Shown piece after piece: positions 42,406-64,000 of a stretch of DNA of 64,000 nt. The notes beneath the pieces are model-generated. The model had not been told where the DNA came from, did no database searches, and saw only the letters and a program-made list of their open reading frames with translations. Positions within the stretch are counted from its first letter, which is position 1; each line of letters begins with the position of its first letter. The DNA comes from Agrococcus pavilionensis RW1 (GTDB taxonomy: Bacteria; Actinomycetota; Actinomycetes; Actinomycetales; Microbacteriaceae). The stretch covers positions 124,001 to 188,000 of the forward strand of contig NZ_ASHR01000014.1 in NCBI RefSeq assembly GCF_000400485.1, in the 5' to 3' direction. The position numbers and the translations under genes are program-made.

Positions 42406-42521
42406 GGATGCCACTCTAGACGGGCGCGCATGCCAGGCCTTTGTGGACTCCCACAGCGCTCCAGCGCACTTCGGTGGCGATCGTCTCCATGCGGAGCCGC
42501 TCGGCCGCATAGGCTGGGCCC
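42406..42521. promoter_or_regulatory. Divergent promoter region accD / birA
   Basis: 116 bp. The reverse -10 box TAGAGT (42413-42418) serves accD, the forward box TAGGCT (42510-42515) serves birA. Both are leaderless. BirA here has no DNA-binding domain, so biotin control through BirA at this site is not expected. Confidence 0.6.
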
Positions 42522-43247: not shown

Positions 43248-43264
43248 TGGGGGAGAATCGTCGC

Positions 43265-43747
43265 GTGCAAGCCGGCGACGAGCGAGTGATCGCGCGCATG
43301 CGACCGCATGGTCGCGTGCTCGTCGTGCCCGTGCTCGTCCTGTGGGCGTGCGTCGGGCTCTCGACGCTGCTCGTCGACCGCGTCGACTGGCCGCTCTGGA
43401 ACGTCGCGGTGCTCACCGTCGCGGGCATCGTGGTCGCGCTGCTCACGATCGTGCCGACCCTCGCGTGGCTCTCGCGCGGCTTCGTGTTCACGACCGAGCG
43501 CGTCATCATCCGCAGCGGCTTCGGCGGCACGCGCCGCGAGACGATGCTCTCGCGCGTGCACGACGTGACCGTGCGGCGGCGCGGGCTGCAGGCGCTCTTC
43601 GGCGCCGGCGACGTGCTGCTCTCGACCGGGGGCGACCGCGCGGTCGTGCTCGCCGACGTGCCGAGCGCGTCGCTCGTGCAGCGCACGCTGTCGGAGCTGC
43701 TGGGTGCGCGGGGCTTCGCGGAGCCCGACCGGGTCGACGCGGCGTGA
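43265..43747 (+). CDS. PH domain-containing membrane protein
   Basis: 160 residues: two hydrophobic helices (about 20-75), then a bacterial PH-like (bPH2) domain (SRGFVFTTERVIIRSGFGG, SRVHDVTVRRRGLQALFGAGDVLL). Function unknown; orthologues sit beside birA in mycobacteria (Rv3278c position). GTG 43265 is preceded by a GAGAAT box at 6 nt and a GGGGGAG. The in-frame ATG at 43247 overlapping the birA stop is a real alternative and would add six residues. Confidence 0.8.
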   Translation: MQAGDERVIARMRPHGRVLVVPVLVLWACVGLSTLLVDRVDWPLWNVAVLTVAGIVVALLTIVPTLAWLSRGFVFTTERVIIRSGFGGTRRETMLSRVHDVTVRRRGLQALFGAGDVLLSTGGDRAVVLADVPSASLVQRTLSELLGARGFAEPDRVDAA

Positions 43748-43777
43748 CCCGCCGCTGACGAGATGACGAGGAGCTCC

Positions 43778-45091: not shown

Positions 45092-46209
45092 TCGTGGGCG
45101 TGGTGGGCGGCGGGCAGCTGGCCCGCATGATGATCCCGGCGGCGGTGGAGCTCGGCATCGAGCTGCGCGTGCTCGCCGAGGCCGATGGCATGTCGGCCGC
45201 GCTCGCGGCGACCGCGGTCGGCGACTACCGCGAGGCCGAGACCGTGCTCGCCTTCGCGGAGGGCGTCGACGTCGTGACGTTCGACCACGAGCACGTGCCG
45301 CAGGACGTGCTGCGCGCGCTCGTCGACGCGGGGCATCGCGTGCACCCCGGGCCCGACGCGCTGCGCTTCGCGCAGGACAAGCGCGCCATGCGCGAGCGCA
45401 TGGCCGAGCTCGGCGCGCCGCAGCCCGACTGGGCCCCCGTCGACTCCCGCGCCGACCTCGAGCGCTTCCTCGCCGACCACGGTGGCGTCGGCGTCGTGAA
45501 GACCGCGACGGGCGGCTACGACGGCAAGGGCGTGCGCGTCGTGCGCGCCGCGGCCGAGGCCCACGACTGGCTCGACGGCGCGGCGGCGGGAGGCCCGCGG
45601 CTGCTCGTCGAGGAGCTCGTGCCCTTCTCGCGCGAGCTCGCGCAGCTCGTCGCGCGCCGTCCCTCGGGCGAGACGCTCGTGTGGCCGCTCGTGCAGACCG
45701 TGCAGCGCGACTCGATCTGCGCCGAGGTGCTCGCTCCCGCCCGGCACGCCGAGCGCATCCAGCCGCTCGTCGACGACATCGCGCGCGGCATCGCCGACGG
45801 GCTCGGCGTCACGGGCGTGCTCGCGGTCGAGCTGTTCGAGACGAGCGACGGACGCGTGCTCGTCAACGAGCTCGCGATGCGGCCCCACAACTCGGGTCAC
45901 TGGACGATCGACGGCTCGATCACGAGCCAGTTCGAGCAGCACCTCCGCGCGGTGCTCGACCTGCCGCTCGGCTCGACCGCCCTGCTCGCGCCGGCGAGCG
46001 TCATGATCAACGTCATCGGGGGGCCCGCGTCGGGCTCGATGACCGACCGCTACCGCGCGGCGCTCCACGCGCATCCGGACGTCAAGGTGCACTCCTACGC
46101 GAAGGCGACGAGGCCGGGCCGCAAGGTCGGCCACGTCACCGCGATCGGCGACGACCTCGACGAGGTCGCCTACCGGGCGCGCGCGGCCGCCGCGCACTTC
46201 GACGCCTGA
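45088..46209 (+). CDS. purK: N5-carboxyaminoimidazole ribonucleotide synthase
   Basis: 373 residues, ATP-grasp enzyme of purine synthesis converting AIR, ATP and bicarbonate to N5-CAIR. VGVVGGGQLARMM opens the N-domain; TATGGYDGKGVR, then ELFETSDGRVLVNELAMRPHNSGH forms the ATP-grasp active site. It starts within the ugd stop; purE follows under its own promoter. Confidence 0.95.
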   Translation: MIVGVVGGGQLARMMIPAAVELGIELRVLAEADGMSAALAATAVGDYREAETVLAFAEGVDVVTFDHEHVPQDVLRALVDAGHRVHPGPDALRFAQDKRAMRERMAELGAPQPDWAPVDSRADLERFLADHGGVGVVKTATGGYDGKGVRVVRAAAEAHDWLDGAAAGGPRLLVEELVPFSRELAQLVARRPSGETLVWPLVQTVQRDSICAEVLAPARHAERIQPLVDDIARGIADGLGVTGVLAVELFETSDGRVLVNELAMRPHNSGHWTIDGSITSQFEQHLRAVLDLPLGSTALLAPASVMINVIGGPASGSMTDRYRAALHAHPDVKVHSYAKATRPGRKVGHVTAIGDDLDEVAYRARAAAAHFDA

Positions 46210-46296
46210 GGCTCGGCACCCGGGTCTCCGGCGGCGGATGCGTCGGGGCGGCGAGGCGATAGGCCGTCCATGGCGAGCGTGCGTACCCTGGAGCCC

Positions 46297-46800
46297 ATGC
46301 GTTCGCAGGTCAGCATCATCATGGGATCGGACTCCGACTGGCGGGTCATGGAGGCGGCGAAGGCCGTGCTCGACGAGCTCGGCGTCCCCTCCGAGGTCGA
46401 TGTCGTCTCGGCGCACCGCACGCCCGACAAGATGGTCGAGTTCGCGCGCGGCGCCGCGGACCGCGGCGTGCGCGTCATCATCGCGGGCGCCGGCGGCGCG
46501 GCGCACCTGCCCGGCATGGTCGCGTCGATGACGCGCTTGCCCGTCATCGGCGTGCCGGTGCCGCTCGAGCGGCTCGACGGCCTCGACAGCCTGCTCTCGA
46601 TCGTGCAGATGCCCGCCGGCATCCCCGTCGCGACCGTCTCGATCGGCGGCGCCCGCAACGCGGGCATCCTCGCGGCGCGCATCCTCGGCACCACCGACGC
46701 CGCGCTCGCCGAGCGCCTCGACGCCTTCGCCGCCGACCTCGAGCGACAGGTGGGCGAGAAGGCCGCGGCCCTCCGCGGCCGCGTGGACGCGAGCGCATGA
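46297..46800 (+). CDS. purE: N5-carboxyaminoimidazole ribonucleotide mutase
   Basis: 167 residues. [26 protein letters not shown] and [20 protein letters not shown] are the PurE class I signatures; it uses the PurK product. ATG 46297 was chosen because TACCCT (46284-46289) ends 7 nt upstream. An in-frame ATG at 46270 lies upstream of that promoter. Its stop overlaps the LCP gene start. Confidence 0.95.
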
Positions 46801-48173
46801 CGCTGCTGCAGGCAGCCACCTCGATCCGCGACCCCGACGCGCGTCGCCCGGAGGTCATGGAGCGGCGCGGCTGGTGGCTCGTGCTGCTCGGCTTCGTGCT
46901 CCCCGGCAGCGCCCAGGTGCTCGCCGGCAACCGGCGCCTCGGCCGCATCGGGATCGTCGCGACGCTCGCGCTCGTCGCCCTGCTCGCGCTCGGCGCGATC
47001 CTGTGGTTCGCGTGGCGCTCGGCGCTGCTGACGCTCATCGGCAACTCGATCGGCCTGCTCGTCGTCGAGGTGCTGCTCATCGCCTACGCGGTGCTCTGGC
47101 TCGTGCTCGGCTTCGACACGCTGCGACTCGCCCGGCTCCGCAAGGTGCGCGGGGGAGCGCGCGCCGCGATCGCGGCCGTCGCGGTGTTCGCGACCGTCGC
47201 GCCCGCGGCGCTCGCGGGCTACGGCGCGAGCGTCGTCGACGCATCCCGGGGCCTCGTCGCGAACCTCTTCGACTTCGCGCGCCCCGCGGTGGAGCCCGTC
47301 GACGGGCGATACACCTTCCTGCTGCTCGGCGGCGACGCGGGCGACGACCGCGAGGGCCGGCGCGCCGACTCGATGACGGTCGTGACCGTCAACGCCGAGA
47401 CCGGCGCCGCGACGATGATCGGGGTGCCGCGCAACCTGCGGAACGCGCCGTTCTCGGAGGGCTCGCCCATGTGGGGCCCGTGGCCCGACGGCTTCGACTG
47501 CTCGTCGAGCGACTGCCTGCTCAACGGCACCTACACGTACGGCGAGGCGCATCCCGAGCTCTACCCCGACGCCGAGGCGCGCGGCTCGAGCCCCGGCATC
47601 GAGGCGACGCGCGACGCGGTCGAGGGCGTCACGGGCATCCCGATCCAGTTCTTCGTGCTCGTCGACATGTCGGGCTTCGAGCAGCTCGTCGACGCGCTCG
47701 GCGGCCTCGAGCTCGAGGTGACCGAGCGCGTGCCGATCGCGATCGAGGGCGGGCCCGTCGAGGAGTGGATCGAGCCGGGCACGCAGCGCATGGATGGCTA
47801 CCACGCGCTCTGGTACGCCCGCAGCCGCGCCGGCTCCTCCGACTACGCGCGCATGGCGCGGCAGCGGCAGGTGCAGGAGGCGATCATCGCCCAGTTCACG
47901 CCGCAGACGCTGCTGACCAAGTACACCGAGCTCTCGGCCGCGGGCCAGGACATGGTGCAGACCGACATCCCGCAGGCCATGATCGGCGGGCTCTCCGAGC
48001 TCGCGCTCGAGACCCGGCGGCTGCCCATCACGAACCTCGAGCTCGTGCCGCCGCAGGTGAACACCGGCGACCCCGACTACGACGCGATCCACGCGATGGT
48101 GCAGGCGGCGCTCGCCGATGCCGACGCGCTCACGCCCCCGACGGGGGAGCCCGCCGAGTCGCCGCAGCCGTGA
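46797..48173 (+). CDS. LytR-CpsA-Psr (LCP) family glycopolymer ligase
   Basis: 458 residues. Several N-terminal hydrophobic helices (about residues 25-150), more than the single helix of most LCP proteins, are followed by an extracytoplasmic LCP domain from about 175: [37 protein letters not shown], the roughly 40-residue Cys/Tyr-rich loop, and [19 protein letters not shown] enzymes move undecaprenyl-linked glycopolymers onto peptidoglycan. Start overlaps the purE stop. It should act on the glycan made by the neighbouring glycosyltransferases. Confidence 0.9.
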
Positions 48174-48189
48174 GTCGAGCCGCTGCGCG

Positions 48190-49149
48190 TCAGTGGCGCT
48201 CGAGCAGGTCGCGCGCGACGTCGTAGGCGCCGCGCGAGAAGCGCCGGTAGCGGCCGCGGGCGATGCCGCGCAGCACGCCCCCGATGCGCAGCGGGCGGGC
48301 GTCGGGCAGCGCCGCTCGCGAGCGCTCGTGGCGGGCCTTCTCGACGAGCCGCTCGAGCGCCGCGCCGCTCGCGAGGCCGCGCCGCGCCGCCTCCGCGGCG
48401 AGCTGCTCGGCCCGCGCGGCCTTCTGCGCGTGCTTGCCCGAGTCCGCCTCGAGCACGCGCCGCAGCTTGCCGCCGAGGCTGAGCCGCTGCACCCCGATCG
48501 CGTTGCCGCCGTGCTGGCGGTAGTCGATGGTCGTCTCCGGCACGTAGCGCACCCCGCCGCCGAGCGCCGCGCAGATCGCGAGCCACTCGTCGTGGATCCA
48601 GGCGGGCGGCACGGGCAGCGCCGCGACCGCCGCGTCGCGCCGCACGATCGCGGTCGCGCCCGTCACGAGGTTGCGCCGCAGGAGGGCGTCGAGCGCGCGC
48701 CCCTCCTCGAGCGCGGCGCGCTCCCACGCCGACATCTCGAGCGACTCCTCGAGCGTCGAGCCGAGCGGTGCGCCGTCGGCGCCGACGAGCCGCGCGTTCG
48801 AGTGCACGAGCGCGACCCCCTCGAGGTGCGGCAGCAGCCGCTCGAGCCGGTCGGGGTGCCACACGTCGTCCTGATCGCTCAGCGCGACGACGTCGCCGCT
48901 CGTCGCGGCGATCGCGTCGGCGAAGTTGGCGGCGACGCCGAGCGCCACGTCGTGCCGACGGATGCGGATGGGCACCTCGGTCTCGCTCGCCACGCGCCGC
49001 ACGACGGCGAGGGTGCCGTCGGTCGAGGCGTCGTCGCCCACGACGATCTCGCTCACGGGCCGCGACTGGGCGAGGATGCTGCGCAGCTGCTCCTCGACCC
49101 ACCGCTCGCCCTGGTGCGTGCACAGGGCGACGCTCACGCGCGCGCTCAC
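48190..49149 (-). CDS. Family 2 glycosyltransferase (rhamnosyltransferase-like)
   Basis: 319 residues, GT-A fold. RVSVALCTHQGERWVEEQLRSIL, EIVVGDDASTDGT, the metal-binding ALSDQDDVWHPDRLE and WIHDEWLAICAA with YRQHGGNAIG define the dTDP-rhamnose-type GT2 subgroup. The C-terminal 80 residues are basic and helical. GTG start overlaps the stop of the upstream GT4 gene. It has a paralogue at 55705. Convergent with the LCP gene (16 nt). Confidence 0.88.
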   Translation of the reverse strand: MSARVSVALCTHQGERWVEEQLRSILAQSRPVSEIVVGDDASTDGTLAVVRRVASETEVPIRIRRHDVALGVAANFADAIAATSGDVVALSDQDDVWHPDRLERLLPHLEGVALVHSNARLVGADGAPLGSTLEESLEMSAWERAALEEGRALDALLRRNLVTGATAIVRRDAAVAALPVPPAWIHDEWLAICAALGGGVRYVPETTIDYRQHGGNAIGVQRLSLGGKLRRVLEADSGKHAQKAARAEQLAAEAARRGLASGAALERLVEKARHERSRAALPDARPLRIGGVLRGIARGRYRRFSRGAYDVARDLLERH

Positions 49150-50246
49150 AGCTCGGCGTGCAGCTGCCACACCTGCCGGGCAGCCGTCTCCCACGTGAAG
49201 GCCCGCGCGCGATCCTGCGCGAGCAGCCGCAGGCGGGCGCGCTCGTCGTCGTCGGCGAGCAGGTCGGCGAGCGCACCCGCGAGCTCGTGCGGGCCGCCGT
49301 CGACGGCGACGCTCGCGCCGCTCGCGATCTCGACGAGCGAGCGGGTCGCGGGGTGCACGGTGGGCGTGCCGAGCGCCGCGGCGTCGAGCAGCGACAGCCC
49401 GAGCGCATCCTGCTCGGCGACGTGGAGGTGCGCGAGCGCACGACGATGGGCGAGCGCGAGCTCGGCGTCGTCGAGCTGCCCGAGCATCACGAGCCGGCCG
49501 GCGGGGATGCCCGCCTCGACCGCGAGTCCCGCGAGCCGGGTCTCGCCCCACTGCACCGGACCGGCGACGACGACCCGGGCATCCGGCATCCTCGGGCTCG
49601 CGACCGTCTCGATGAGCCGACGCGCCTGGCCGAGCGCGCCCGGGCTCGTGATCGCGAGCACGAACTCCTCCGGCAGCGAGAGCGGCGCCTCCGACTCGGC
49701 CGCGCGCAGCAGCGCGGTCGAGGGAGCGGGGTGCACGACGCGCACGCGGTCGCCGGTGTCGTGCAGGAGGGAGAGGTCCTCGGCGATGGCCGTGGAGGGG
49801 ACGACGATCCCGTCGGCGAGCTGGAGCGCGCGCCGCAGCGCCCGGTCGAACCACTGCTGCTTGCGCTTCGAGCGGTCCGAGAACGGCTGCAGGCCGTGCA
49901 CCGTCACGGTGACCTGGTCGCCGTGCGACGGCTCGCGCCGCAGCGGCGCCATGAGGCTCGTCGCGTGCACGAGGCCGCGGACGGGGAGCGTCGTGAACGA
50001 GTGCAGCCAAGCCTCGCGCAGCTCGCGGGCCGGCACCGCCGTGCGACGGAGCTCGGCGAGGCCCGGCAGCTGCGCCTCGGCGCGCGCGGCGCGGCCGTCG
50101 CTCAGCTTCGCGGCGATCGCCCCGACCTCGACGCCATCCGGCGCCGTCCAGGCGAGCGCGCGCGCCATCTCGGTCGAGTAGCGGCCGACCATCGTCGGCG
50201 TGCGCTCCCCGACCTCGTCGAGCACGACCGTCAGCCTGGTCGCCAT
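49146..50246 (-). CDS. Family 4 glycosyltransferase
   Basis: 366 residues, GT-B fold. The N-half is variable (VLDEVGERTPTMVGRYSTEMA, GLVHATSLMAP, TVHGLQPF); the C-half has FVLAITSPGALGQARRLIE, VVAGPVQWGE and HVAEQDALGLSLLDAAALGTP, the E-x7-E-like donor region of GT4. Acceptor and donor are unknown. The promoter -10 box TAGGAT is on the reverse strand at 50356-50361, giving a leader of about 100 nt. Confidence 0.82.
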   Translation of the reverse strand: MATRLTVVLDEVGERTPTMVGRYSTEMARALAWTAPDGVEVGAIAAKLSDGRAARAEAQLPGLAELRRTAVPARELREAWLHSFTTLPVRGLVHATSLMAPLRREPSHGDQVTVTVHGLQPFSDRSKRKQQWFDRALRRALQLADGIVVPSTAIAEDLSLLHDTGDRVRVVHPAPSTALLRAAESEAPLSLPEEFVLAITSPGALGQARRLIETVASPRMPDARVVVAGPVQWGETRLAGLAVEAGIPAGRLVMLGQLDDAELALAHRRALAHLHVAEQDALGLSLLDAAALGTPTVHPATRSLVEIASGASVAVDGGPHELAGALADLLADDDERARLRLLAQDRARAFTWETAARQVWQLHAEL

Positions 50247-50355
50247 GGCGCCTCCCGCTCCGTCTCGAGTCGTGCCTCCGGCGGGCGGATGCTGCCCGCC
50301 GACGACGAGGACCGCTCGAGGCCGATGGCCCCCGGTCGGCTGCGTCGGAGCTCCG

Positions 50356-50361
50356 ATCCTA
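50356..50361 (-). promoter_or_regulatory. -10 box for the GT4-GT2 pair
   Basis: TAGGAT on the reverse strand, between the CAP-protein stop codon and the GT4 gene; transcription from here would read both glycosyltransferase genes. Confidence 0.45.
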
Positions 50362-50378
50362 TCCGGGGGCCCTCCGGC

Positions 50379-51761
50379 TCAGCGGGTGCCGAAGTCGAGC
50401 ACGTAGTACCAGGAGCCGTTCGAGCCGCGGTCGACGCCGATGCCGATGTGCGTGAAGCTCGACCGGAGGATGTTGTTGCGGTGCCCCTCCGAGGCCATCC
50501 AGGCGCTCATGATGCGAGCGGTGTCGGGGCTCGAGCCGCTCGTGCGGCCGACGTTCTCGCCCCAGCCGCGCAGCGAGCACGCGCGCGCCTCGGCCGTGAG
50601 CGAGGGGTTGTGCGCCGAGCCGGCGAGGTTGCCCTCGGCCATGGCGCCGGCCCAGCCGGCCGCCATGCGCGTGAGGCAGCCGTCGGCCGCGAGCGGACGG
50701 ACGCCGGCGGCCGCGCGCTCGCGGTTGATGCGGTCGAGCAGGTCGGAGGCCGAGGCGTCGAGCGCTCCGCACGGCACGAGCGCGGCGGCGACGGGGGAGA
50801 CGGTCGTCACACCCCCGAGCACGGTGATGCCGCGACTGCCGACGCGGTCGCGCTCCGCGGCGACGGAGCCGCTCGAGGCGCAGCCGGGTGTCGTGAGGTA
50901 GAGCGGCTCGCCGCGGAGGCCGGCGTAGACGGCGCCGACGAGGCCGTCGGGGAAGTCGGTGCCGCTCGCGAGCACGAGCTGACCGCCGCTGCGCGCGGGC
51001 GTGAAGCGCTGGTTGATCTGCACCGCGGTCTCGTAGCGGTCGGCGCCGGGGAACCGCGTCACGGTGCGGCCCGTGCTCGAGAGGAGCGACTGCACGTCGG
51101 CACCCACGCTCGCGACGCTGCCCGGGATGTGGAATCGCTCGACGCCGCCGATGCGCGCGCTGATCTGCTGGCGGAACGACGCGTCCGCCCCGGTCGTCAG
51201 CACGAGGCCGTGGCCGTCGCGCGCGGCGACCGCGCCCGCGGCGAGCGCGTCGGGGAAGTCGGCGCCGCTCGCGACCCAGACGTCGCGGACCGACGTGTGC
51301 TTCCGCATCCGGTCGAGCAGCAGCATCGAGGTCTCGACGCGGTCGGCGCCGCCGATGCGCGTCACCTCGGCCCGGGGCGCGGCCTGCGAGGCCTGCGCGG
51401 CGACCGCAGCGGAGAGCGTCGCCTCGGAGCCGAGCACGACGACCTCGCTCGGAGCGAGGCGGGCGATCTCCGCCCGCACCGACGTCGGGATGCCGTCGGG
51501 GCGCACGAGCAGCAGGTGGGCGCCCTCGGCGGCGGCGACGGGTGCGGCGGCGAGCGCGTCGGGGAAGGAGACGCCCGAGGCGAGGAAGACCGCGTCGCCG
51601 GCCGGCAGCTGCCGTGAGGCGAGCACGCTCGTCTCGAAGCGGTCCATGCCGGCGATCCGGCTGTCGGCGGCCTCTGCCGCGGGCGCCGGGCCGAGCACGG
51701 CGGCGCCGACCACGGCGGCGAGAGCGAGGGAGGTGAGCGCAAGACGGCGCATGGATCTCAT
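50379..51761 (-). CDS. Secreted cell-wall protein: three CWB2 repeats plus CAP domain
   Basis: About 460 residues. Sec signal peptide (RRLALTSLALAAVVGAA, cleavage near AEA-AD). Three cell-wall-binding type 2 repeats start at RIAGMDRFETS, RIGGADRVETS and RFPGADRYETA, each with a FPDALA/FPDGLV motif. The C-terminal CAP (SCP/PR-1-like) domain has AHNPS, WGENVG, SAWMASEGHRNNIL and HIGIGVDR, with the cavity His and Glu residues. CWB2 repeats bind anionic wall polymers; the CAP activity is unknown. Start 51752 (ATG, three codons later) is equally plausible. Confidence 0.88.
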   Translation of the reverse strand: MRSMRRLALTSLALAAVVGAAVLGPAPAAEAADSRIAGMDRFETSVLASRQLPAGDAVFLASGVSFPDALAAAPVAAAEGAHLLLVRPDGIPTSVRAEIARLAPSEVVVLGSEATLSAAVAAQASQAAPRAEVTRIGGADRVETSMLLLDRMRKHTSVRDVWVASGADFPDALAAGAVAARDGHGLVLTTGADASFRQQISARIGGVERFHIPGSVASVGADVQSLLSSTGRTVTRFPGADRYETAVQINQRFTPARSGGQLVLASGTDFPDGLVGAVYAGLRGEPLYLTTPGCASSGSVAAERDRVGSRGITVLGGVTTVSPVAAALVPCGALDASASDLLDRINRERAAAGVRPLAADGCLTRMAAGWAGAMAEGNLAGSAHNPSLTAEARACSLRGWGENVGRTSGSSPDTARIMSAWMASEGHRNNILRSSFTHIGIGVDRGSNGSWYYVLDFGTR

Positions 51762-51852
51762 TCCGAGAGGATGATGGGGTACAAGTCGGTTACCCTGCCA
51801 GCAAACTTCCGCCACTGTCAAGGGTTGGGCACGCGGCGACTATGGTGATCGC

Positions 51853-54780
51853 ATGCCGGTTCCAGCCCTGCAGCGCTCGATGGCCCGCGCCCGGTCCACC
51901 GGTCGGAGGCTGCTGTCGAGGACCGTGGGGGTGCCGCTCCACGAGCAGGCGACCGCCGCTCAGGACGACCGCCCGTCGCCCCGGCTGCTGCGCGAGATCG
52001 CCGGCCTGCGCGCGCAGAACCTGCGCTCGCGCGCACCCGTCGTCGATCCGAGCGGCGACGCCGTCGTGACGATGACGACGCACGGAGAGCGCATCCGCCT
52101 CGTCTGGGTCGCGCTCGAGTCGATCGCGCGCGGCGACATCCTGCCGCGCCGGCTCATCCTCTTCCTCGATGAGCCCGATCTCGCTCGCCCGCTGCCGTCG
52201 CCCCTGCTGCGCCTGCAGCGGCGCGGGCTCGAGATCCTCCCGGCAGCGCCCGGCCTGCGAGTGCACGCGAAGTACTGGCCCTACGTGTCCGCGATCCTCC
52301 GCCACGAGCTGCCGCTCGTCGTGAGCGACGACGACATGGTCTATCCCGCCCGGTGGTTGCGGGTGCTGGTCGAGGCGCACCGCGCGCGGCCGGAGCTCGT
52401 GCACGCGTTCCGGGCGCACGAGATCCCGTGCCTCGACGGCGCGCTGCGACCGTATCGGGAGTGGCGCCCGGCCTCGGGGACGGCGCCGAGCTTCGCGCAC
52501 TTCGGGACTGGCGTCTCGGGGCAGCTGCTGCCGGTGGCGCTGCTCGAGCGGCTGCGGGACGAGGGAGAGGGGTTCCTCGAGAGCGCGCCGACCGCTGACG
52601 ACGTCTGGATCAACGCGGTCGCCGTCAGGAACGGCATCCAGACCGCGCAGGTCGAGGCGCAGAGCCGCAACTTCCCGTTCGTCCCCGCCACGCAGGCGAC
52701 CGGGCTGTATCGGTCCAACGTCGCAGGCGGCCAGAACGACGTGCAGCTGGAGCGAACGCTCGCCCCCGAGGAGCGCGAGCGCATCTGCGCGGGATCGCGT
52801 CCCGCTGCTGTCCGCTCCCGTGCCGCGCCGACGTTCGTGACGTGGGGCCGCTTCACCGACAACCCCTGGCAGGACATCATCGAGACGGGGGTGCGGTCCG
52901 CCGGGATCTCGACGATCGACCTCGAGCACGGCGCCTCGCTCGAGAGCGTGCTCGACCGCGCAGCCGACGGGCTCGCGGTGCACCTCAACTGGACTGCTCC
53001 CATCACGCAGCGCGCCTCGACCGAGGAGGACGCGTGCGCGGCCGTCGATCGCGCCCTCGCTGAGGTGGACGCGCTCCAGCGCGCCGGCGGCGCGCTCATC
53101 TGGACGGTGCACAACGCGGCAGCGCACGAACCGATCAACCCATGCGCCGAGCGCCGCCTCCTGGAGGGGCTGGCCGAGCGGGCCGACATCGTGCACACCA
53201 TGCACCCGCGCACCGCCGAGGCGATCGAGGAGGCCTGGGGCATCCGGCTCGAGCGGCAGGTCAACATCCCGCATCCCAGCTACCTCGGGGTCTACCCCGA
53301 TGAGATGGACCGGTCGAGTGCCCGATCCGCGCTCGGCATCCCGGAGAGCAGGACCGCGGTGCTCCTGCACGGGACGCTGCGGGAGTACAAGGGGCTGGAC
53401 GCGCTGGCCGATGGCTTCCTCGCGGCTCGGGAGCGCGGTGCTGACCTGCACCTGCTCGTCGCAGGACGCCCCGGAGCCGGCTTCGACGCCGCGGCGTTCG
53501 AGCAGCGGTTCGCGGACCGTGACGACGTGACGGTGCACGCAGACCACGTCCCCGTCGACGAGGTGCAGCTGTGGCACCGAGCGGCCGACGTCCTCGTGAT
53601 GCCCTATCGCGAGGGGCTCAACTCGGGTGCGCTGCAGCTCGCGGCGACGTTCGACCTGCCGGTCGTGGCCTTCCCCTGCATGGCGGTCGAGCAGGCGCAG
53701 GACGAAGGATGGGCAGTCGTCGTCGACCCTGCTCGTCGCGAGTGGCTGCTCGATGGGCTCGCCGCGCTGCCATCGGCAGCTCGCCGCCGCGCATCCGAGG
53801 CGGCGAGGACGCGCGCGCCCGAAGCGACGGCTGAGGCCTTCGCGCGGATCGTCCTCGACGCGATCGCGACCCGCTCGCGCCCGATCGACCCCACGGCAGT
53901 CGCTGTGATCGTGAGCTTCGGCTCGGCGGCCCTCATCGAGCGCGGTCTGACGCCGCTCCTCAGCAGGATGCGCTCGGTCATCGTCGAGAATCCGACAGAC
54001 ACTGCCGAGCACGAGCGACTCATGGCCGTTGCCGATCGGCTCCGCGGCGATCTCATCGAGATGCCCCAGAACGTCGGCTTCGGTGCGGCAGTGCGCGCCG
54101 GCGTGCAGCGCGCGCTCGAGATGGGCGCTCGGCACGTGCTGCTGCTGAACCCCGACGTGCGCGCGGACGCCCCGACCATCGAGCGCATGCTCGAGCGCTC
54201 CCTGGCCGAGCCCGACGCCATGGTCGCCCCTCGCATCCTCACGCCGGACGGCCGCCTGTGGTTCGACGGTGGCGTCATCGACTGGGATCGCGGGATCGCG
54301 CGCCATCGTCGACGCGATGAAGCGGATCGGGCGCTCGACTGGTTGACCGGCGCGTGCCTGCTCGTCCCGGTGCACGCGTGGGACCGTCTCGGCGGACTCG
54401 ACGATGACTACTTCCTCTACTGGGAGGACGTGGACTTCACGCACCGCTGGCTCGCTCACGGGCGGCTCGTCCTCGAGCCGGGCGCACACGTCGTGCACGA
54501 GGTCGGCGGGACGCAGGGGAGCGGGGGCAAGTCGTTGGGCTACACCTACTACAACGCTCGCAACCGGATGCTCTTCGCCGCGCGGCACCTGGGGCTTCGT
54601 GGGCTCCTCCGCTGGTCGCGCTCCGCGCCGGCGTACCACGACGAGCTCCTCGCCCGCTCCGGTGCGCCGGATGCGGCGGCTCGCGCCCGGCACCGCGCGA
54701 CCGCTGCGCGAGGAAGCCGCAACGGTGCGCTCCGCGGCGTCGAGCGGCTCGTCCGCAAGCGGCCGGAGAGCAACGACTAG
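51853..54780 (+). CDS. Three-domain glycosyltransferase (GT-A, GT4-type GT-B, GT2 WbbL-like)
   Basis: 975 residues. Domain 1 (about 65-310) is GT-A-like: [20 protein letters not shown], then [11 protein letters not shown] (Asp159-161). Domain 2 (about 325-675) is [60 protein letters not shown]. Domain 3 (about 680-930) is WbbL-like GT2: [58 protein letters not shown]. No transmembrane segment is evident. TATGGT-6 nt-ATG fixes the start. Codon use is less strictly GC-ending than in neighbours, hinting at a different origin. Probably assembles several linkages of the surface glycan. Confidence 0.82.
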
Positions 54781-54821: not shown

Positions 54822-55697
54822 TTGCGCGGCATCATCCTGGCGGGCGGGTCCGGTACTCGGCTGTGGCCGATCACCAAGGGCATCTCGAAGCAGCTCATGC
54901 CCATCTACGACAAGCCGATGGTCTACTACCCGCTGTCGACCCTCATGATGGCCGACATCCGCGAAGTGCTCGTCATCACGACCCCCGAGTACAACGAGCA
55001 GTTCCGCGCGCTGCTCGGCGACGGCTCCGAGCTCGGCATGCAGATCGAGTACGCCGTGCAGCCGAGCCCCGACGGGCTCGCGCAGGCGTTCATCATCGGC
55101 GAGGAGTTCATCGGCGACGAGTCGGTCGCGCTCGTGCTCGGCGACAACATCTTCCACGGCACGGGCCTCGGTTCGAGCCTGCGGCGGCACGGCGACATCG
55201 AGGGCGGGCTCATCTTCGCGTACCAGGTCGCCGACCCGGCCGCCTACGGCGTCGTGGAGTTCGACGACGAGATGCGGGCGATCTCGATCGAGGAGAAGCC
55301 GAAGCAGCCCAAGAGCCACTACGCGGTGCCGGGCCTGTACTTCTACGACAACTCGGTCGTCGAGATCGCGAAGACCATCGAGCCGAGCGCGCGCGGCGAG
55401 CTCGAGATCTCGACGGTCAACGAGCGCTACCTCGAGCGCGGCGCGCTGAGCGTGCAGGTGCTCGACCGCGGCGTCGCGTGGCTCGACACCGGCACGTTCG
55501 AGTCGATGATGCAGGCGAGCGAGTACGTGCGCGTCATCGAGGACCGGCAGGGCTTCAAGATCGGCTGCATCGAGGAGATCGCCTGGCGCGCAGGCTGGAT
55601 CGACGACGAGCAGCTGCGCGCCCTCGCTGAGCCGCTCGTGAAGAGCGGCTACGGGCGCTACCTGCTGACGCTGCTCGAGCGCGCCGCGCGCGACTGA
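54822..55697 (+). CDS. rmlA: Glucose-1-phosphate thymidylyltransferase
   Basis: 291 residues. First enzyme of dTDP-L-rhamnose synthesis. [65 protein letters not shown] and [14 protein letters not shown] are classic RmlA motifs. The start is TTG: GGAGG lies 5 nt upstream and translation gives the canonical [16 protein letters not shown] box lies at 54778-54783. rmlB, C and D are not in the window. Confidence 0.96.
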
Positions 55698-55704
55698 GCA
55701 GGCG

Positions 55705-56637
55705 TCACCAGAGGCCGAGCAGCAGCACCGCGGCGAGCGCGGCACGGTCCGCGCCGCGGCGGCGGAGGCTGCCGACGCCGCGCAGCAGCGCGAGCCGGGC
55801 GCCGAGGTCGTCGCGCTCGAGCAGCGCCGCGATCGAGGTGAGCCGCGAGCGCTCGGGCTCGTCGGCGAGCCGAGCCGCGATGCGTGCGATGACCGCGGCC
55901 TCGCGCCGGAACTCGCCGGTGCGCAGGCGGCGGAGCCGGCGGCCCGCCTGTCGCCAGCCGACGTTCGCCCCGGCGACGTTCGCGTCGTGCTGGCGGTAGT
56001 CGATGACGGGCGCGGGATCGATGTGCCAGCGCATGCCGGCGGCGCGCACGATCGCGTAGACGAGCCAGTCGTGGATGGGCGCGTCGGCGGCCTCGGGATC
56101 GTCGAGCACCGTGCGGCGGACGAGGTCGAATGCGCGCGCGGAGAGCACGAAGGTGCAGCCCGGGCCCGCGCTCTCGAGCACGAAGTCGAGCGACCGCTGC
56201 GCCTGGGCCTTGTCGATGAGCGTGCGCCGGTCGCCGTAGTCGGCGACGACGTTCGCGCTCACCGCCTCGGCGCCCCGGAGCTGCTCGAGCTGCGCCGCGA
56301 GGCGCTCGGCGTGCCAGACGTCGTCCTGGTCGGAGAACGCGACGGCGGCGGCGCCGTCCCACGGCGCTTCGGCGATGAGCCGGAGGAAGTTGGCATGCGC
56401 GGAGCCGAGGTCGACCGGCTCGAGCAGCACGATCCGCGGCTCGTCGGCGGCGAGCGACTGCAGCAGCCCTCGAGTGCCGTCGGTCGAGCCGTCGTCCGAG
56501 ATGACGAGCCGCACGTCGACGCCGCGCTGGGCGAGGATCGATGCCACCTGCTCGCGCAGGAAGCGCGCGCCGTCGTGGGTGGCCATCAGCACGGTCACCG
56601 CGGGGAGCGCCGCGGCGGCCGCCGCCAGCTCGCTCAC
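55705..56637 (-). CDS. Family 2 glycosyltransferase (rhamnosyltransferase-like)
   Basis: 310 residues, paralogue of the GT2 at 48190. VTVLMATHDGARFLREQVASIL, LVISDDGSTDGTRGLL, AFSDQDDVWHAERLAAQLE, then IHDWLVYAIVRAAG and YRQHDANVAGANVGW. The GTG start overlaps the stop of the ABC ATPase gene, so it belongs to the exporter operon. Likely adds a deoxysugar to the exported glycan. Confidence 0.88.
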   Translation of the reverse strand: MSELAAAAAALPAVTVLMATHDGARFLREQVASILAQRGVDVRLVISDDGSTDGTRGLLQSLAADEPRIVLLEPVDLGSAHANFLRLIAEAPWDGAAAVAFSDQDDVWHAERLAAQLEQLRGAEAVSANVVADYGDRRTLIDKAQAQRSLDFVLESAGPGCTFVLSARAFDLVRRTVLDDPEAADAPIHDWLVYAIVRAAGMRWHIDPAPVIDYRQHDANVAGANVGWRQAGRRLRRLRTGEFRREAAVIARIAARLADEPERSRLTSIAALLERDDLGARLALLRGVGSLRRRGADRAALAAVLLLGLW

Positions 56638-57851
56638 CGCGCCGGCTGCAGCGCTACCGACAGCGGCGTCGACGCGAGCCCCGTGCTGATGCCGTTGTCC
56701 GCCACGCGGAACGCGGTCGCCTCCTGGGCGCGTGCGAGCTCGGTGCCGTCGCGGTGCTCGAGCGCGGCCGACACGGTGTAGGCGCCGGGGCCGATCGAGA
56801 GCGACGGCATCGAGAACCGGAGGGTCGATCGGCCCGAGAGCTCCGTCATCGGGTCGAGCCCGAGCCGCTCGGTCGAGGAGTAGAGCGCGACCTGCCCGAA
56901 GGTGTTGGCGATCGCGATCCCCAGGCGCCAGTCCCGCACCGAGTCGATCGCGTCGACCTCGACCTCGAGCTGCACGTCCTGCCCGATCTCGACGCCCGTC
57001 GTCGGCGCTCCCTGCGCGTCGACGAGCCGCACGCTCGGGATCGCCACCCGTGCCCTCGCCGGGGCGCTGAGCGCGTTCTCCCGCTCGAGGCGCTGCGCCG
57101 CGTCGGCGTCGCGCTGCGACTGGAAGCCGCCGCGCAGCATCCCGACCGCGTCGATCGGCGCCCCGTCGAAGACGACGTTGCCGTGCGAGAGCACGATGCC
57201 CCGCGTGCACAGATCCGTGATCTGGCTCAGCGTGTGGGTGACGAGCACGATCGTGCGCCCCTCGAGCTGGAACGAGCGGATCTTGTCGAGGCACTTCTGC
57301 TGGAACGCCTCGTCGCCGACGGCGAGCACCTCGTCGACGAGCAGCAGGTCGGGGTCGACGTGCACGGCGACCGCGAACGCGAGCCGCACGTACATGCCCG
57401 AGGAGTAGAACTTCACCTGCGTGTCGATGAAGTCCTCGATGCCCGAGAAGTCGACGATCGCGTCGAAGTACCGGTCGATCTGGCGCTCGGTGAGCCCGAG
57501 GATCGAGGCGTTGAGGTAGACGTTCTCGCGACCGGAGAGGTCGGGGTGGAAGCCGGCGCCGAGCTCGAGCAGCGCCGCCATGCGGCCCCGGCGCACGACG
57601 CGGCCGCTGCTCGGATGGATGATGCCGCCGATGGTCTTCAGCAGCGTCGACTTGCCCGAGCCGTTCGGGCCGATGAGGCCGACGGTGTTGCCCGAGTGGA
57701 TGTCGAGCGAGATGTCGTGCAGCGCCTCGAAGGTCTCGGCGTGCCTCCTGCCGAGCGCGGCGTTGACGACGCGCTCCTTGAGGCTCTTGTCCTTGCGCAC
57801 GGTGAAGTGCTTCGAGACGTTCTCGACCTGGACGATGGGGACGGCTTCCAT
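56634..57851 (-). CDS. wzt: Polysaccharide ABC exporter ATPase with C-terminal glycan-binding domain
   Basis: 405 residues. The N-terminal ABC domain has VENVSKHFTVRKDKSLKERV, Walker A GPNGSGKSTLLK, signature FYSSGMYVRLAFA and Walker B LLLVDEVLAVGD. From about residue 260, after a linker, comes a beta-rich Wzt-C-like domain (VRLVDAQGAPTTGVEIGQDV, FSMPSLSIGPGAYTVSAA). In Wzt homologues this domain recognises the finished, capped chain. It starts within the permease stop (TGATG). Confidence 0.92.
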   Translation of the reverse strand: MEAVPIVQVENVSKHFTVRKDKSLKERVVNAALGRRHAETFEALHDISLDIHSGNTVGLIGPNGSGKSTLLKTIGGIIHPSSGRVVRRGRMAALLELGAGFHPDLSGRENVYLNASILGLTERQIDRYFDAIVDFSGIEDFIDTQVKFYSSGMYVRLAFAVAVHVDPDLLLVDEVLAVGDEAFQQKCLDKIRSFQLEGRTIVLVTHTLSQITDLCTRGIVLSHGNVVFDGAPIDAVGMLRGGFQSQRDADAAQRLERENALSAPARARVAIPSVRLVDAQGAPTTGVEIGQDVQLEVEVDAIDSVRDWRLGIAIANTFGQVALYSSTERLGLDPMTELSGRSTLRFSMPSLSIGPGAYTVSAALEHRDGTELARAQEATAFRVADNGISTGLASTPLSVALQPAR

Positions 57852-58765
57852 CACAGCTCCTGGGCGAAGTCGCCCTGCAGTCGGGCGAAGACGCGCTGCG
57901 CGACGATGACGAGCACCGCGCTCACGCCGGTCGCGATGAGCATGTTGACCCACAGGTGCGGCACGAAGTCGGCGCTCGCGCCCGCCTGCCAGAACGCCTC
58001 CTGGAATCCCAGCACGGCGAGCGTCAGCGGGTTGTTGATGTAGAGCTGCGTGAGCCACTCGAAGGCGCCCCCGGCGAGCCGGTCGCGCACCATGGCGATC
58101 GAGTACAGGATCGGCGAGCCCCACATGAGCAGCACGAGCACGACGTCGACGAGGTAGGAGACGTCGCGGAGGTAGACGTTCGTCGCCGCGAGCACGAGCG
58201 CGAGCGCCGCGCTCAGCACCACGATGAGCACGATCGACAGCAGCGCGTAGAGCAGGTGGGGACCCAGCGACAGGCTGCCCGTCACCGCCGAGGCGACGAT
58301 GAGGATGACGAGCTGGATGCCGAGCGTGAACAGCGCAGGACCGATCGTCGCGAGCGGGAAGATCTCGCGCGGCAGGTACACCTTCTTGATGAGGCCCGAG
58401 TTCGTGACGATCGAGCTCGTGCCCGCGCCGACGGTCTCGGAGAAGAGCGTGTAGATCGCGAGGCCCGCGAAGATGTAGATGCCGAAGTTCGGGATGCTGC
58501 GCGCGGCTCCGAGGAACTCGCCCACCACGAGCGCGTACACGAAGAGCATCGTGAGCGGCCGCACGAGGCTCCACACGAAGCCGAGCCGGGAGTCCTTGTA
58601 CCTCGCCTTGAGCTCGCGCTTCGTCAGCCGGCCGAAGAGCTCGCGGTAGCGCCAGAGCTCGCGGATGGTCGTGACGAAGCCCTGGAGGCCGCGCCCGGAG
58701 ACGCCGGCGTCGATCCAGGGCTCAGCGGCCAGCCGTGCCGCGCGATCGCGCGCGATGTCGGTCAT
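57851..58765 (-). CDS. wzm: Polysaccharide ABC exporter permease
   Basis: 304 residues, ABC-2 type with six helices. The amphipathic N-terminal RYRELFGRLTKRELKARYKDSRLGFVWSL and KKVYLPREIFPLA are typical of Wzm/TagG/RfbD proteins. ATG 58765 has AGGAAGG upstream; the longer reading from 58870 precedes the TAGGAT promoter box (58800-58805) and is rejected. With Wzt it exports undecaprenyl-linked glycan. Confidence 0.92.
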   Translation of the reverse strand: MTDIARDRAARLAAEPWIDAGVSGRGLQGFVTTIRELWRYRELFGRLTKRELKARYKDSRLGFVWSLVRPLTMLFVYALVVGEFLGAARSIPNFGIYIFAGLAIYTLFSETVGAGTSSIVTNSGLIKKVYLPREIFPLATIGPALFTLGIQLVILIVASAVTGSLSLGPHLLYALLSIVLIVVLSAALALVLAATNVYLRDVSYLVDVVLVLLMWGSPILYSIAMVRDRLAGGAFEWLTQLYINNPLTLAVLGFQEAFWQAGASADFVPHLWVNMLIATGVSAVLVIVAQRVFARLQGDFAQEL

Positions 58766-58926: not shown

Positions 58927-61317
58927 GTGGAGAAGCGGTCTTGGAGCCGGGCCCTCGTGGCGTCCGTCGCCGTCCTGGGGGTGCTCGTGTCGGGCCTCGT
59001 GACGGCGCCGACGACCGCGGAGGCGGCGAGCGCATCGAGCTTCGACCCCGGCGAGCTCATCAGCGACGAGAACTTCTACGCGGGCGGCTCGATGGATGCC
59101 GGCGCCGTGCAGCGCTTCCTGGACGAGCGGCGTCCGCAGTGCGTCAGCGGCTACACGTGCCTCGTCGACTACAAGCAGGCGACGCCGTCGATGCCCGCCA
59201 ACCGCTACTGCACCGCGATGAACGGCGTCGCGAACGAGTCGTCGGCGAGCATCATCGCCCGGGTCGGCGCGGCGTGCGGCATCAATCCGCGAGTGCTGCT
59301 CGTGCTGCTCGAGAAGGAGCAGTCGCTCGTCACCCACCGCTCCCCGAACGCGACGCGCTACGCGAAGGCGACGGGCTTCGCGTGCCCCGACACCGCGCCG
59401 TGCGACAGCAGCTTCGGCGGCTTCTTCTACCAGGTCTACTACGCGGCCCGGCAGTTCCAGGTCTACAAGACGTTCCCGCAGAACTACAACCACATCGCCG
59501 GCCGCGTCAACAACATCCTGTACCACCCCAACGCCGCGTGCGGCTCGAGCCCCGTGCTCATCCGCAACCAGGCCACCGCGGGGCTGTACAACTACACGCC
59601 CTACCAGCCGAACGCCGCGGCCCTCGCGAACCTCTACGGCACCGGCGACTCGTGCTCCGCATACGGCAACCGGAACTTCTGGCGCATCTGGACCGACTGG
59701 TTCGGCGACCCGCGCTCGAGCAACGGCGTCGACCCGTTCGGCTCGATCCAGTCCGTCTCGACGACGCCGGCGAGGGCGATCGCCACGGGCTTCGCGATCG
59801 ACCCCTCCGCGCCCGCGCAGGCGATCTCCGTCAACCTGTACCTCGACGGCGTCTGGCAGCGCACGTACCGCGCGGACCAGTCGAACGCCGCGGCGGGCCA
59901 GGCGCTCACGGGAGCCGGGAACAACCACGGCTTCTCGATCGAGTTCGCCATGCGCGGCGTGCCCGTGGAGATGTGCATCGCGGCGCTCAACGTCGGCGCA
60001 GGCAAGGATCAGTGGATCGGCTGCCGCACCGTGCAGCCGCCCACCGGTCAGCCCGTCGGCCGCATCGACCACGCGTCCGCCTCCGGCCGGACGGCGAACA
60101 TCAGCGGCTGGGCGCTCGACCCCGACACCGCCGCGTCGATCAACGTCCACGCCTACCTCGACGGCCGCTACGCCGGGGCCTTCACCGCGAACACCTCCCG
60201 GCCGGACGTCGGCCGCGTCTACCGCGACTACGGCGACAGGCACGGCTTCGCCTTCCAGCTGCCGATCCCGGTCGGCACGAGCGAGGTCTGCGTCTACGCG
60301 ATCGCGGTGCCGATGGGCGACAACCCCCTGCTCGGGTGCCGAGAGGTCTCCAACGCATCCGGCCCGCCGCGCGGTCAGCTCGACGGCACGTCGGCCGGTC
60401 CCGGCTCGGTGAGCGTCTCGGGCTGGGCGCTCGACCCCGACACCGCGGCATCGATCGAGGTGCAGATGCTCGTCAACGGCCGGGTCGTCACGACCGGGCG
60501 CGCCGACCGGAGCCGACCCGACGTCGGCCGCGTGTTCCCCGGCTATGGCAACAACCACGGCTACGCGATGACCGCGAGCGTCGCGGGCGGCACGAACACC
60601 GTGTGCGTGCGAGCCCTGAACGTCCGCTCCGGCAGCGATGTGCAGCTCGGCTGCCGCGTCGTCGAGACGCCTTCGGGCTCGCCGTTCGGCAACATCGACT
60701 CGCTCGTCGTCGACAGCGCGACCGGGGCGCTCACCGTGAACGGCTGGGCGATCGACCCCGACTCGACGGCGCCGGTGACCGTGCGCGTCTACGTGAACGG
60801 CGCGGTGCGCGCTGAGTACGCGGCGAACGGCAGCCGTCCGGACGTCGCGCGCTACTACCCGGCCTACGGCGCGCAGCGCGGCATGCAGTCCGGTCAGCTC
60901 ACGCTGTCGCCCGGCGTGAACAGCATCTGCATCTGGGCGCTCAACACCGGAGCGGGCGACCCGAAGCTGCTCGGCTGCAAGACCGCGAACATCACCGGCT
61001 CGCCGTTCGGGCGGATCGACTCCGCGAGCGTCGACCCTGCGACGGGAGCGCTCCGGCTGAACGGCTGGGCGATCGACCCCGACACGGCCGCGTCGCCGCT
61101 CATCAACCTCTACCTCGGCGGCGACCTCGTCGCCCAGGAGCGGGCGACGGCGTCCCGCCCTGACGTCGCGCGGGTCTACCCGCTCTACGGCGCGCAGCGC
61201 GGTCTCGGCTCGCTCACCACCACCGTGCCGCCCGGCTCGCACCGCGTGTGCGCCTGGGCGGTGAACGAGGGAGCGGGCTCGAGCGTCCTGCTCGGCTGCC
61301 CGGTCGTCACCCGATGA
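58927..61317 (+). CDS. Secreted protein with five GWAxDPDT repeats and a lytic-enzyme-like N-domain
   Basis: 796 residues. The signal peptide ends near residue 35 (TAEAAS). An N-domain (about 40-265; GELISDENFYAGGSMDAGAVQ, FLDERRPQC, VLLVLLEKEQSLVT) contains a Glu-rich helix, paired cysteines and a lysozyme-like flavour; its chemistry is unproven. Five repeats of about 105 residues start near residues 269, 376, 479, 585 and 692, each with FGxID, a GWAxDPDT-like core, a SRPDV-(G/A)-R segment, YG and a closing GC. GTG 58927 follows GAGGGG. Divergent from the Wzm/Wzt operon and coupled to the next gene. Confidence 0.8.
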   Translation: MEKRSWSRALVASVAVLGVLVSGLVTAPTTAEAASASSFDPGELISDENFYAGGSMDAGAVQRFLDERRPQCVSGYTCLVDYKQATPSMPANRYCTAMNGVANESSASIIARVGAACGINPRVLLVLLEKEQSLVTHRSPNATRYAKATGFACPDTAPCDSSFGGFFYQVYYAARQFQVYKTFPQNYNHIAGRVNNILYHPNAACGSSPVLIRNQATAGLYNYTPYQPNAAALANLYGTGDSCSAYGNRNFWRIWTDWFGDPRSSNGVDPFGSIQSVSTTPARAIATGFAIDPSAPAQAISVNLYLDGVWQRTYRADQSNAAAGQALTGAGNNHGFSIEFAMRGVPVEMCIAALNVGAGKDQWIGCRTVQPPTGQPVGRIDHASASGRTANISGWALDPDTAASINVHAYLDGRYAGAFTANTSRPDVGRVYRDYGDRHGFAFQLPIPVGTSEVCVYAIAVPMGDNPLLGCREVSNASGPPRGQLDGTSAGPGSVSVSGWALDPDTAASIEVQMLVNGRVVTTGRADRSRPDVGRVFPGYGNNHGYAMTASVAGGTNTVCVRALNVRSGSDVQLGCRVVETPSGSPFGNIDSLVVDSATGALTVNGWAIDPDSTAPVTVRVYVNGAVRAEYAANGSRPDVARYYPAYGAQRGMQSGQLTLSPGVNSICIWALNTGAGDPKLLGCKTANITGSPFGRIDSASVDPATGALRLNGWAIDPDTAASPLINLYLGGDLVAQERATASRPDVARVYPLYGAQRGLGSLTTTVPPGSHRVCAWAVNEGAGSSVLLGCPVVTR

Positions 61318-62642: not shown

Positions 62643-64000
62643 TCAGCCGCGGCGGCGCAGCCGCCTGACAGCCTTCGAGCCGGCGCGCATCGCGAGGTGC
62701 CGCGCCCGAGCGACCGGCCCGCCGGCGCCGAAGCGGCGCTCGACGAGCTCGAGGGCGGATGCGTCGACCGAGATCCGCTCGACCCGCTCGGCGCGGATGA
62801 CGATCTCCCGACCGGCAGCCGGCCCGGAGACCAGGTAGGCGGGATCGTGGCTCGAGAAGAGGTCGACGCCGCGCGACCGGGTGCCGTTGAGCGGCACGAT
62901 GCGCAGCTCGGCCGGTTCGATCAAGATGCCCTCCACGAGCGCGCCGGCGCCCTCCAGCGGGTCGAAGCGCACCCCGAGCGCGTCCTCCGGCACCCGGACG
63001 CGCACCTCGAGCGAGCCGCCCGCGCGCCGCTCGAACGACCTCGAGGTCGCGTGCGCGAAGCCCGGTCCGACGTCGAAGAACACCGTGGCGGTGATCGCGC
63101 GCTGATCGACGCGGGCGAGCGTGGCCTCGAGCCCCTCGCCGTCGACGGCGCCCGCGGCGCGGTTGATGCTCGCGTAGGCGGCGGAGGAGACCGCCGCGAG
63201 GGTCTCGGCGAGGTCGCGGGAGATGCCGCGGCGCACGCGCCAGCCGAGCCGCGGGAGCACGGCCGTCATGATGGCGAGCCAGTCGTGGGGCTGCAGGCGC
63301 CGCTCGGCGCGGTCGCGCTCGGCGGCGGGCATCGCGTCGACCGCGGCGCTCCACTGCGCAGCCGTCGCCCGCCGGATCCAGAGGCCCGCGCCCGGGGCCG
63401 CGTCCGCGAGCGCGCGAGCATCGACCCCGAGGGCGCCGCACGCCGCCTCGAGGGCCGCGAGGCGACGCTCGGGCCGCGCGCCGCCGATGCCGCCGTAGAA
63501 GTTGCGGGCGGGGGAGGGCGGCGCGAGCACCATGCCGAGGAGCGCCGACTCGCGGAACGCGCGAGCCACCCGGCCGAGCTCGTCGCGCTCCCAGCCGAGC
63601 GCCTGCCGCGCGTGCTCGAAGGCGATCCGGGCGTCGGCCTCGTGGCGCGCCGCATCGATCGACGGCAGCACGTACAGCAGCTCGGCGTCGACGCTCGCGA
63701 GGGCGAGGTGCGGCGGGCGAGTGCCCGTGCGGACCACCTCGGCGCCGTCGACCCGCGTCAGGGCGTCGCCGTCGCGCGCGAGCAGCACCGTGCGCATCCC
63801 CGCGGCGAGCATGCCCGACGCCTGCTGCGCCGCGAGCGGGCCGGGCAGCACCACGACCGCGACGGTCGAGGCGTCGTCGGCGGGACCGGTGTCGATCGAG
63901 ACGAAGTCCTGCAGCGCGAGGTCGAGGTCGGCGGAGCGCATCGTGCGCGCGGCGTGGCGCTCGAGCGCATCGATGTCGACGCCGGGCGCGTCGCGGAGCC
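62643..64000 (-). CDS. Partial gene, rhamnan synthesis protein F (RgpF)-like C-terminal part
   Basis: At least 452 codons remain open to the window edge; the ATG at 63941 is unlikely to be the start because the frame continues upstream without a stop. The segment ESALLGMVLAPPSPARNFYGGIGG, followed by EAACGALGVDARALADAAPGAGLWIRRA, resembles the LGLL-PPPP / apparent GTMFW region of RgpF-type proteins. HDWLAIMTAVLPRLGWRVRRGIS follows, then a beta-rich C-terminus. The match is distant. Convergent with the GT-C-like gene (3 nt). Confidence 0.5.
   Translation of the reverse strand, partial: LRDAPGVDIDALERHAARTMRSADLDLALQDFVSIDTGPADDASTVAVVVLPGPLAAQQASGMLAAGMRTVLLARDGDALTRVDGAEVVRTGTRPPHLALASVDAELLYVLPSIDAARHEADARIAFEHARQALGWERDELGRVARAFRESALLGMVLAPPSPARNFYGGIGGARPERRLAALEAACGALGVDARALADAAPGAGLWIRRATAAQWSAAVDAMPAAERDRAERRLQPHDWLAIMTAVLPRLGWRVRRGISRDLAETLAAVSSAAYASINRAAGAVDGEGLEATLARVDQRAITATVFFDVGPGFAHATSRSFERRAGGSLEVRVRVPEDALGVRFDPLEGAGALVEGILIEPAELRIVPLNGTRSRGVDLFSSHDPAYLVSGPAAGREIVIRAERVERISVDASALELVERRFGAGGPVARARHLAMRAGSKAVRRLRRRG

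Follow-up and report, generated by a model that had tools for sequence, protein, structure and literature searches.

Three glycosyltransferase modules share one chain in WbbB of Klebsiella pneumoniae O12, a protein of an ABC-exporter-dependent pathway that combines modules of families GT99, GT102 and GT103 with a coiled-coil ruler (PMC11231755). Streptococcal rhamnans are specified by Rgp loci with a rhamnose-pathway gene, an ABC exporter, RgpF homologues and an LytR-CpsA-Psr (LCP) protein, and the general scheme is one of lipid-linked synthesis, ABC export and LCP attachment, with the LCP step described as likely but unproven (PMC4931226).

We analysed a window of 64,000 nucleotides of Agrococcus pavilionensis RW1 (positions 124,001 to 188,000 of NZ_ASHR01000014.1, a contig of 308,429 bases), in which one protein joins three glycosyltransferase modules, called D1, D2 and D3 here (Table 1). 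With WbbB this triple protein shares the presence of several modules per chain and a locus that includes Wzm/Wzt, and with the Rgp loci its surroundings share all four kinds of gene listed above. A difference is that the passages of PMC4931226 examined name no three-module glycosyltransferase. A literature search on Agrococcus wall rhamnose returned, by title, no paper on the wall polymer and no wall-polysaccharide structure for comparison.

The gene and its locus

The first-pass annotation had described a 975-residue open reading frame that encodes three separable glycosyltransferase modules and whose neighbours are rmlA and a Wzm/Wzt exporter. This description is borne out by an intact frame (zero internal stops) and by Pfam, profile and fold matches. 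The start codon is putative, as a codon-score gene caller, whose training set of eight window genes contained the gene itself, picked GTG at 51925. On the whole protein, Pfam places GT1_4 (PF13692) at residues 502-628 and GT2 (PF00535) at 727-810 and has no match in residues 1-316; as a single query against PDB sequences, the protein has no match at E ≤ 1. Its strongest 19-residue hydropathy mean is only 1.6, so it appears to lack a clear membrane span. Because the full-length structure model is weak (mean pLDDT 64, pTM 0.47; the D1 part is poor and covered by only two rows), we left the packing of the modules uninterpreted. In the fold searches, only positive matches count as evidence here.

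Table 1 Features of the triple gene and its surroundings, in window positions
Feature	Position	Strand	Remarks
LytR-CpsA-Psr (LCP) ligase	46797..48170	+	PF03816
GT2a, GT2 glycosyltransferase	48193..49149	-	Domain search
GT4 glycosyltransferase	49149..50246	-	Pfam
CWB2 plus CAP protein (cell-wall-binding)	50382-51752		Adjoins triple gene
Triple-module glycosyltransferase gene	51853..54780	+	975 codons/975 aa, ATG to stop
D1, GT-A, GT45/GT64-like	52045..52800	+	Residues 65-316; profile, fold, alignment
D2, GT4-like, MshA-like	52825..53880	+	Residues 325-676; Pfam, profile, alignment
D3, GT-A, GT2, rhamnosyltransferase/GlfT2-like	53890..54732	+	Residues 680-960; Pfam, profile, fold
rmlA, glucose-1-phosphate thymidylyltransferase	54822..55694	+	TIGR01207, 473 bits (cut-off 361)
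GT2b, GT2 glycosyltransferase	55708..56637	-	Pfam; between rmlA and Wzt
Wzt, ABC exporter ATPase with Wzt_C domain	56637..57854	-	PF00005/PF14524
Wzm, ABC exporter permease	57854..58765	-	PF01061; start by codon score, ORF extends to 58870
C-terminal part of 709-aa RgpF-like gene	62646..63998	-	Continues past window end; RgpF match itself outside window

From 43.8 kb, the gene order is nucleotide-sugar dehydrogenase, two genes that are presumably purK and purE, LCP ligase, GT2a, GT4, CWB2/CAP, triple gene, rmlA, GT2b, Wzt and Wzm; the locus continues past the window with an RgpF-type gene of 709 aa and a 714-aa protein that joins an RgpF second half to WbsX. This order largely recurs in relatives, and RgpF matches are full length in genomes G001, G012 and G017 and partial in G018. 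By its gene content, the locus is a predicted kit for a rhamnan-type wall polysaccharide, with lipid-linked synthesis, ABC export and LCP attachment.

Several further features accompany the locus. RgpF is split over two adjacent genes across window end 64000 (L157:1146-5418, minus strand), and the fusion of its second half to WbsX (PF14307) gives the locus a further fused glycosyltransferase. A 796-aa, secreted-looking protein with repeated GWA(L/I)DPD motifs (58927-61314) matches no Pfam or NCBIfam model at the limits used, and its relatives sit near Wzm/Wzt in several Agrococcus genomes. The CWB2 plus CAP gene also adjoins D1 in several relatives, and in G010 a second CWB2-type gene sits between D1 and rmlA.

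We propose, with about evenly balanced confidence, that the triple protein works in the cytoplasm, peripheral to the membrane, as a multi-module glycosyltransferase for a rhamnan-type wall polysaccharide. The sugars added by D1, D2 and D3 would be consecutive ones on a single undecaprenyl-linked chain and would form a side chain or a repeat unit of the lipid-linked polymer; the finished chain would be exported by Wzm/Wzt and attached to peptidoglycan by the LCP protein.

Kinship and motifs of the modules

D1 matches no Pfam or NCBIfam model, and single-sequence searches gave nothing in PHROG and a lone chance match (E 2.3) in the PDB. The predicted structure of residues 1-326, however, matches GT-A enzymes across residues 66-320, and profile and structure searches place the module beside the GlcNAc-transferases KfiA of Escherichia coli K5 and heparosan synthase 2 (PmHS2) and beside EXTL/EXT domains, neighbours that we take to carry the family labels GT45 and GT64. 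D1 profiles reach KfiA at E values of 0.036 (A1), 4e-8 (A2) and 1.6e-7 (A3), and the best single stretch of heparosan synthase scores 6e-6. Identity to KfiA and to the GlcNAc-transferase domain of PmHS2 is only 9-13%, at query-normalised Foldseek TM-scores of only 0.44-0.52, and the predicted fold is of the KfiA type; the α-HexNAc-transferase domains of the eukaryotic heparan enzymes EXTL2, EXT1-EXT2 and EXTL3 are 8-12% identical, with a weak profile match. PmHS2 and KfiA differ from the triple protein in their partner modules, and the window locus has rmlA and RgpF genes instead. R80, K140, D159-D161 and D249-D250 are invariant in 38 aligned D1 sequences.

Thus D1 is indeed the least recognisable module in terms of Pfam and NCBIfam, whereas the further suggestion that it could be a new glycosyltransferase family loses ground to its fold and profile placement near the KfiA/EXT type. 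We also rejected a fold without known kin, given the matches to GT-A enzymes, and an ordinary PF00535 GT2 enzyme, as just 5 of 15 members match PF00535 (best E 0.0025). Judged by its kinship, D1 is probably a retaining, α-linking transferase with a HexNAc or hexose donor.

D2 exceeds the gathering cut-off of a group 1 glycosyltransferase model (PF13692, 38.9 bits against 27), falls below that of PF00534 (20.8 against 26.4) and matches MshA, WaaG and PimA in profile searches, all of which we take to be GT-B enzymes. Its fold is supported by this profile evidence and by MshA rows in Foldseek at query-normalised TM-scores of only 0.13-0.16. MshA, like GlfT2 for D3, belongs to another pathway (17-20% identity in Foldseek). 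Among 16 aligned D2-subfamily sequences, 36 columns are invariant, and the motifs HxxWTxP, WTxHN, YKG and LNS are invariant or nearly so.

The EX7E motif is usual in GT4 enzymes. Read by eye, no row of the D2 alignment has both glutamates (16 rows, with HG114 twice, hence 15 distinct sequences), which makes catalysis by D2 less sure. The same absence would fit a module, most likely D2, that has lost catalysis and now serves as an acceptor-binding or scaffold domain. We consider such a loss unlikely, as the whole subfamily lacks EX7E and yet keeps its invariant columns, and as D2 has a dN/dS of 0.39 between the window and its fused relative in HG114. In the proposed role, D2 would be a GT4-like, retaining transferase, one of three active modules that add consecutive sugars.

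For D3, the C-terminal third of the protein is modelled with a fold that matches GT-A enzymes, GlfT2 being the closest. All 21 rows of a D3 alignment match the rhamnosyltransferase model TIGR01556, although D3 itself, at 38.7 bits, is far under the NCBIfam curated cut-off of 200.55; against PF00535 (cut-off 23.3 bits) the module scores 26.4 bits as part of the full-length protein and 21.8 bits by itself. The acidic donor-site and catalytic motifs (NPD 766-768, ED 858-859 and D861) are at least 90% conserved in 45 rows. One alignment (A6), in which pieces of D1 were set against D3, was left out. In the proposed role, D3 would be inverting, with rhamnosyl or similar transfer. Gene calls in the examined loci gave 53 D3 genes, of which 3, the window's included, are longer than 400 aa.

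Distribution and history of the fusion

D1 occurs in 11 of 24 genus genomes (own included), always in the wall-glycan locus and directly beside rmlA in seven. Codon-score gene calls make it stand-alone in nine and fused to D2 in two, the window and Agrococcus sp. HG114, a member of the same GTDB genus. HG114, an independent assembly, encodes D1 and D2 in a single frame, 68% identical to the window, on a 14,150-base contig (NZ_JANQCH010000061.1) that ends after D2, at query residue 651. Searches of its assembly for a continuation found nothing D3-like beyond 39% identity, no rmlA beyond 34% and no second contig whose overlap with the contig end exceeds about 50-100 bases. As the gene beyond D2 falls in an assembly gap, HG114 speaks neither for nor against D3, and the full trio is seen in one genome only, that of the window.

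Counting D2 matches above 100 bits, nine genus genomes have D1 only, ten D2 only, two both (the fused cases) and three neither (Fisher p 0.012, treating related genomes as independent and including four drafts less than 90% complete). D1 and D2 are thus near-alternatives in the genus and need not share a pathway step, a pattern that, with the nine stand-alone D1 genes, would fit modules fused for co-expression or complex assembly and acting at non-consecutive steps, with D1, for example, on the backbone and D2 and D3 on a side chain. We regard this as possible, if doubtful, because related steps are suggested by two-module fusions elsewhere and by the proximity of D1 and D3 outside the genus. 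A 1319-aa protein of another Microbacteriaceae genome (G728; L154:4042-7998) joins GT4 (829-968) to D1 (1024-1279), the reverse of the window's order, and its first 800 residues have no Pfam match at E 0.01; D3-GT4 fusions occur in L037 and in L044, where the frame is still open as the contig stops. Among the family matches listed, D1 and D3 are both present in 11 genomes, close together in four and far apart or on different contigs in seven. One gene separates them in G546, G1122 and G983, all of one genus, and about 3.3 kb with three genes in G918. The addition of consecutive sugars remains our preferred reading.

Beyond the genus, 122 of 398 genomes in a family sample give a match with an E value of 1e-20 or lower, and among the matches listed none besides the window's spans more than one module, at the limited sensitivity of two candidates scored per genome and with HG114 outside the genomes listed. 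The match in G934 nominally runs from D1 into D2 (query 50-436), but codon scoring reduces it to a stand-alone D1 gene of 253 aa. D1 is found in 5 of 396 phylum-sample genomes (single query) and 22 of 396 order-sample genomes (profile; four at 21-24 bits only), own included in each, and outside the phylum in Zoogloea, Mucilaginibacter and five plasmid records. In contigs of a viral collection, D1 is fused to TOD1_MUCI70 or to a second D1, and D2-type loci encode GT2-unassigned-GT4 proteins of about 960-980 aa (Pfam on one of them). In L142-L144, D1 lies in stop-to-stop frames of more than 450 aa, but the genes called there from codon scores measure 248-308 aa; L146 was ambiguous.

Relatives of the modules also cluster in other ways. 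In G918, D1 and D3 lie on either side of a gene (L161:1672-2631) that matches D2 weakly, at 29 bits, such that all three module kinds are neighbours. Each of the Agrococcus D2-type loci L098-L102 has two or three D2 relatives, some oppositely oriented and including the GT2-unassigned-GT4 proteins, and the viral-collection contigs L121, L122, L123, L125, L126 and L128 carry D1 relatives, some in tandem.

The trio had been flagged as unusual, and its rarity stands (fusion to D2 in 2 of 24 genus genomes), but a protein with three glycosyltransferases is already published in WbbB. A narrow phrase search for three-domain or trifunctional glycosyltransferases returned no paper, and none was found in the open literature, with partial coverage of wording, for the order GT45-like/GT4/GT2. 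As each module lies near known enzymes and a three-glycosyltransferase chain is on record (PMC11231755), the triple protein joins known kinds of parts in a new and rare way and is not a new kind of enzyme.

Codon use in the gene is looser than in its neighbours, as first noted. Its CAI-like value (0.556, with a reference set that left the gene out) and GC3 (0.898) are the lowest among the 47 genes called in the window that have 150 codons or more (means 0.780, sd 0.057, and 0.972, sd 0.017, both taking in the gene itself); the full ORF scores 0.546 on the CAI-like measure, and D1, D2 and D3 score 0.609, 0.546 and 0.510. The fused HG114 gene is ordinary for its contig (its GC3 is 0.962, the mean there 0.971) and the stand-alone D1 of G017 deviates (0.838 against 0.942), so the looseness is real and not tied to the architecture.

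The window's flanks are closest to those of G017 (94% over 42001-50272, 86% over 50344-51824 and 88% over 54823-56593), which holds in the slot a divergent stand-alone D1, 66% identical to the window's at the DNA level. A GT4 tree pairs the window with G017 and then HG114 (support 100/99 and 100/97), whereas a D1 tree groups it with HG114, G001, G010 and G012 (93/99, just under the tool's mark) and leaves G017 as a long separate branch. In the proposed explanation, a D1 gene, stand-alone in the same locus of relatives, would have been fused to a GT4 and a GT2 module. The simplest reading of the history is that the fused gene predates the split of window and HG114 and that G017 acquired a different D1, although transfer in another direction is possible.

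Low codon adaptation, the divergent stand-alone D1 in the slot of the genome nearest by flanks and the confinement of fused D3 to a single genome would also suit a recent recombination chimera or assembly artefact with no particular function. This is very unlikely, and disfavoured for D1-D2, because the independent HG114 assembly repeats that fusion in frame. Between the two, dN/dS is 0.39 for D1, as for D2, against 0.25-0.38 for four neighbours, and both modules are under constraint.

Weighing the proposed role

The proposed addition of consecutive sugars thus draws on several kinds of evidence: the kept modules and motifs, with D1 near α-GlcNAc-transferases and D3 linked to TIGR01556 by its rows and to GlfT2 by its fold; the surrounding RmlA, Wzm/Wzt, LCP and RgpF/WbsX genes, and the placement of D1 in this locus in all 11 genus genomes that carry it; and the closeness of D1 and D3 in some family genomes listed, with the dN/dS of D1 and D2. 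It is weakened by the EX7E-less D2, by the single genome with fused D3, by the distance of D3 from the TIGR01556 cut-off, by the separation of D1 and D3 in most of the listed family genomes that have both, and by the low codon adaptation, which also fits a recently acquired or poorly expressed gene. A bolder version, in which D1 would found a distinct retaining GT-A family between GT45 and GT64 (counting relatives in Actinomycetota, Zoogloea, Mucilaginibacter, some proteobacterial plasmids and viral-collection contigs) and the trio would be a one-chain polymerase of a whole wall-polysaccharide repeat unit, strikes us as rather improbable.

D1 may serve as a bacterial comparison point for KfiA/EXT-type transferases outside a heparosan-type locus. 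If the modules act in sequence, a sporadic family that lacks a Pfam model would be tied to a defined pathway, and the protein would spell out three adjacent linkages of an actinobacterial wall glycan that is otherwise hard to read from genomes.
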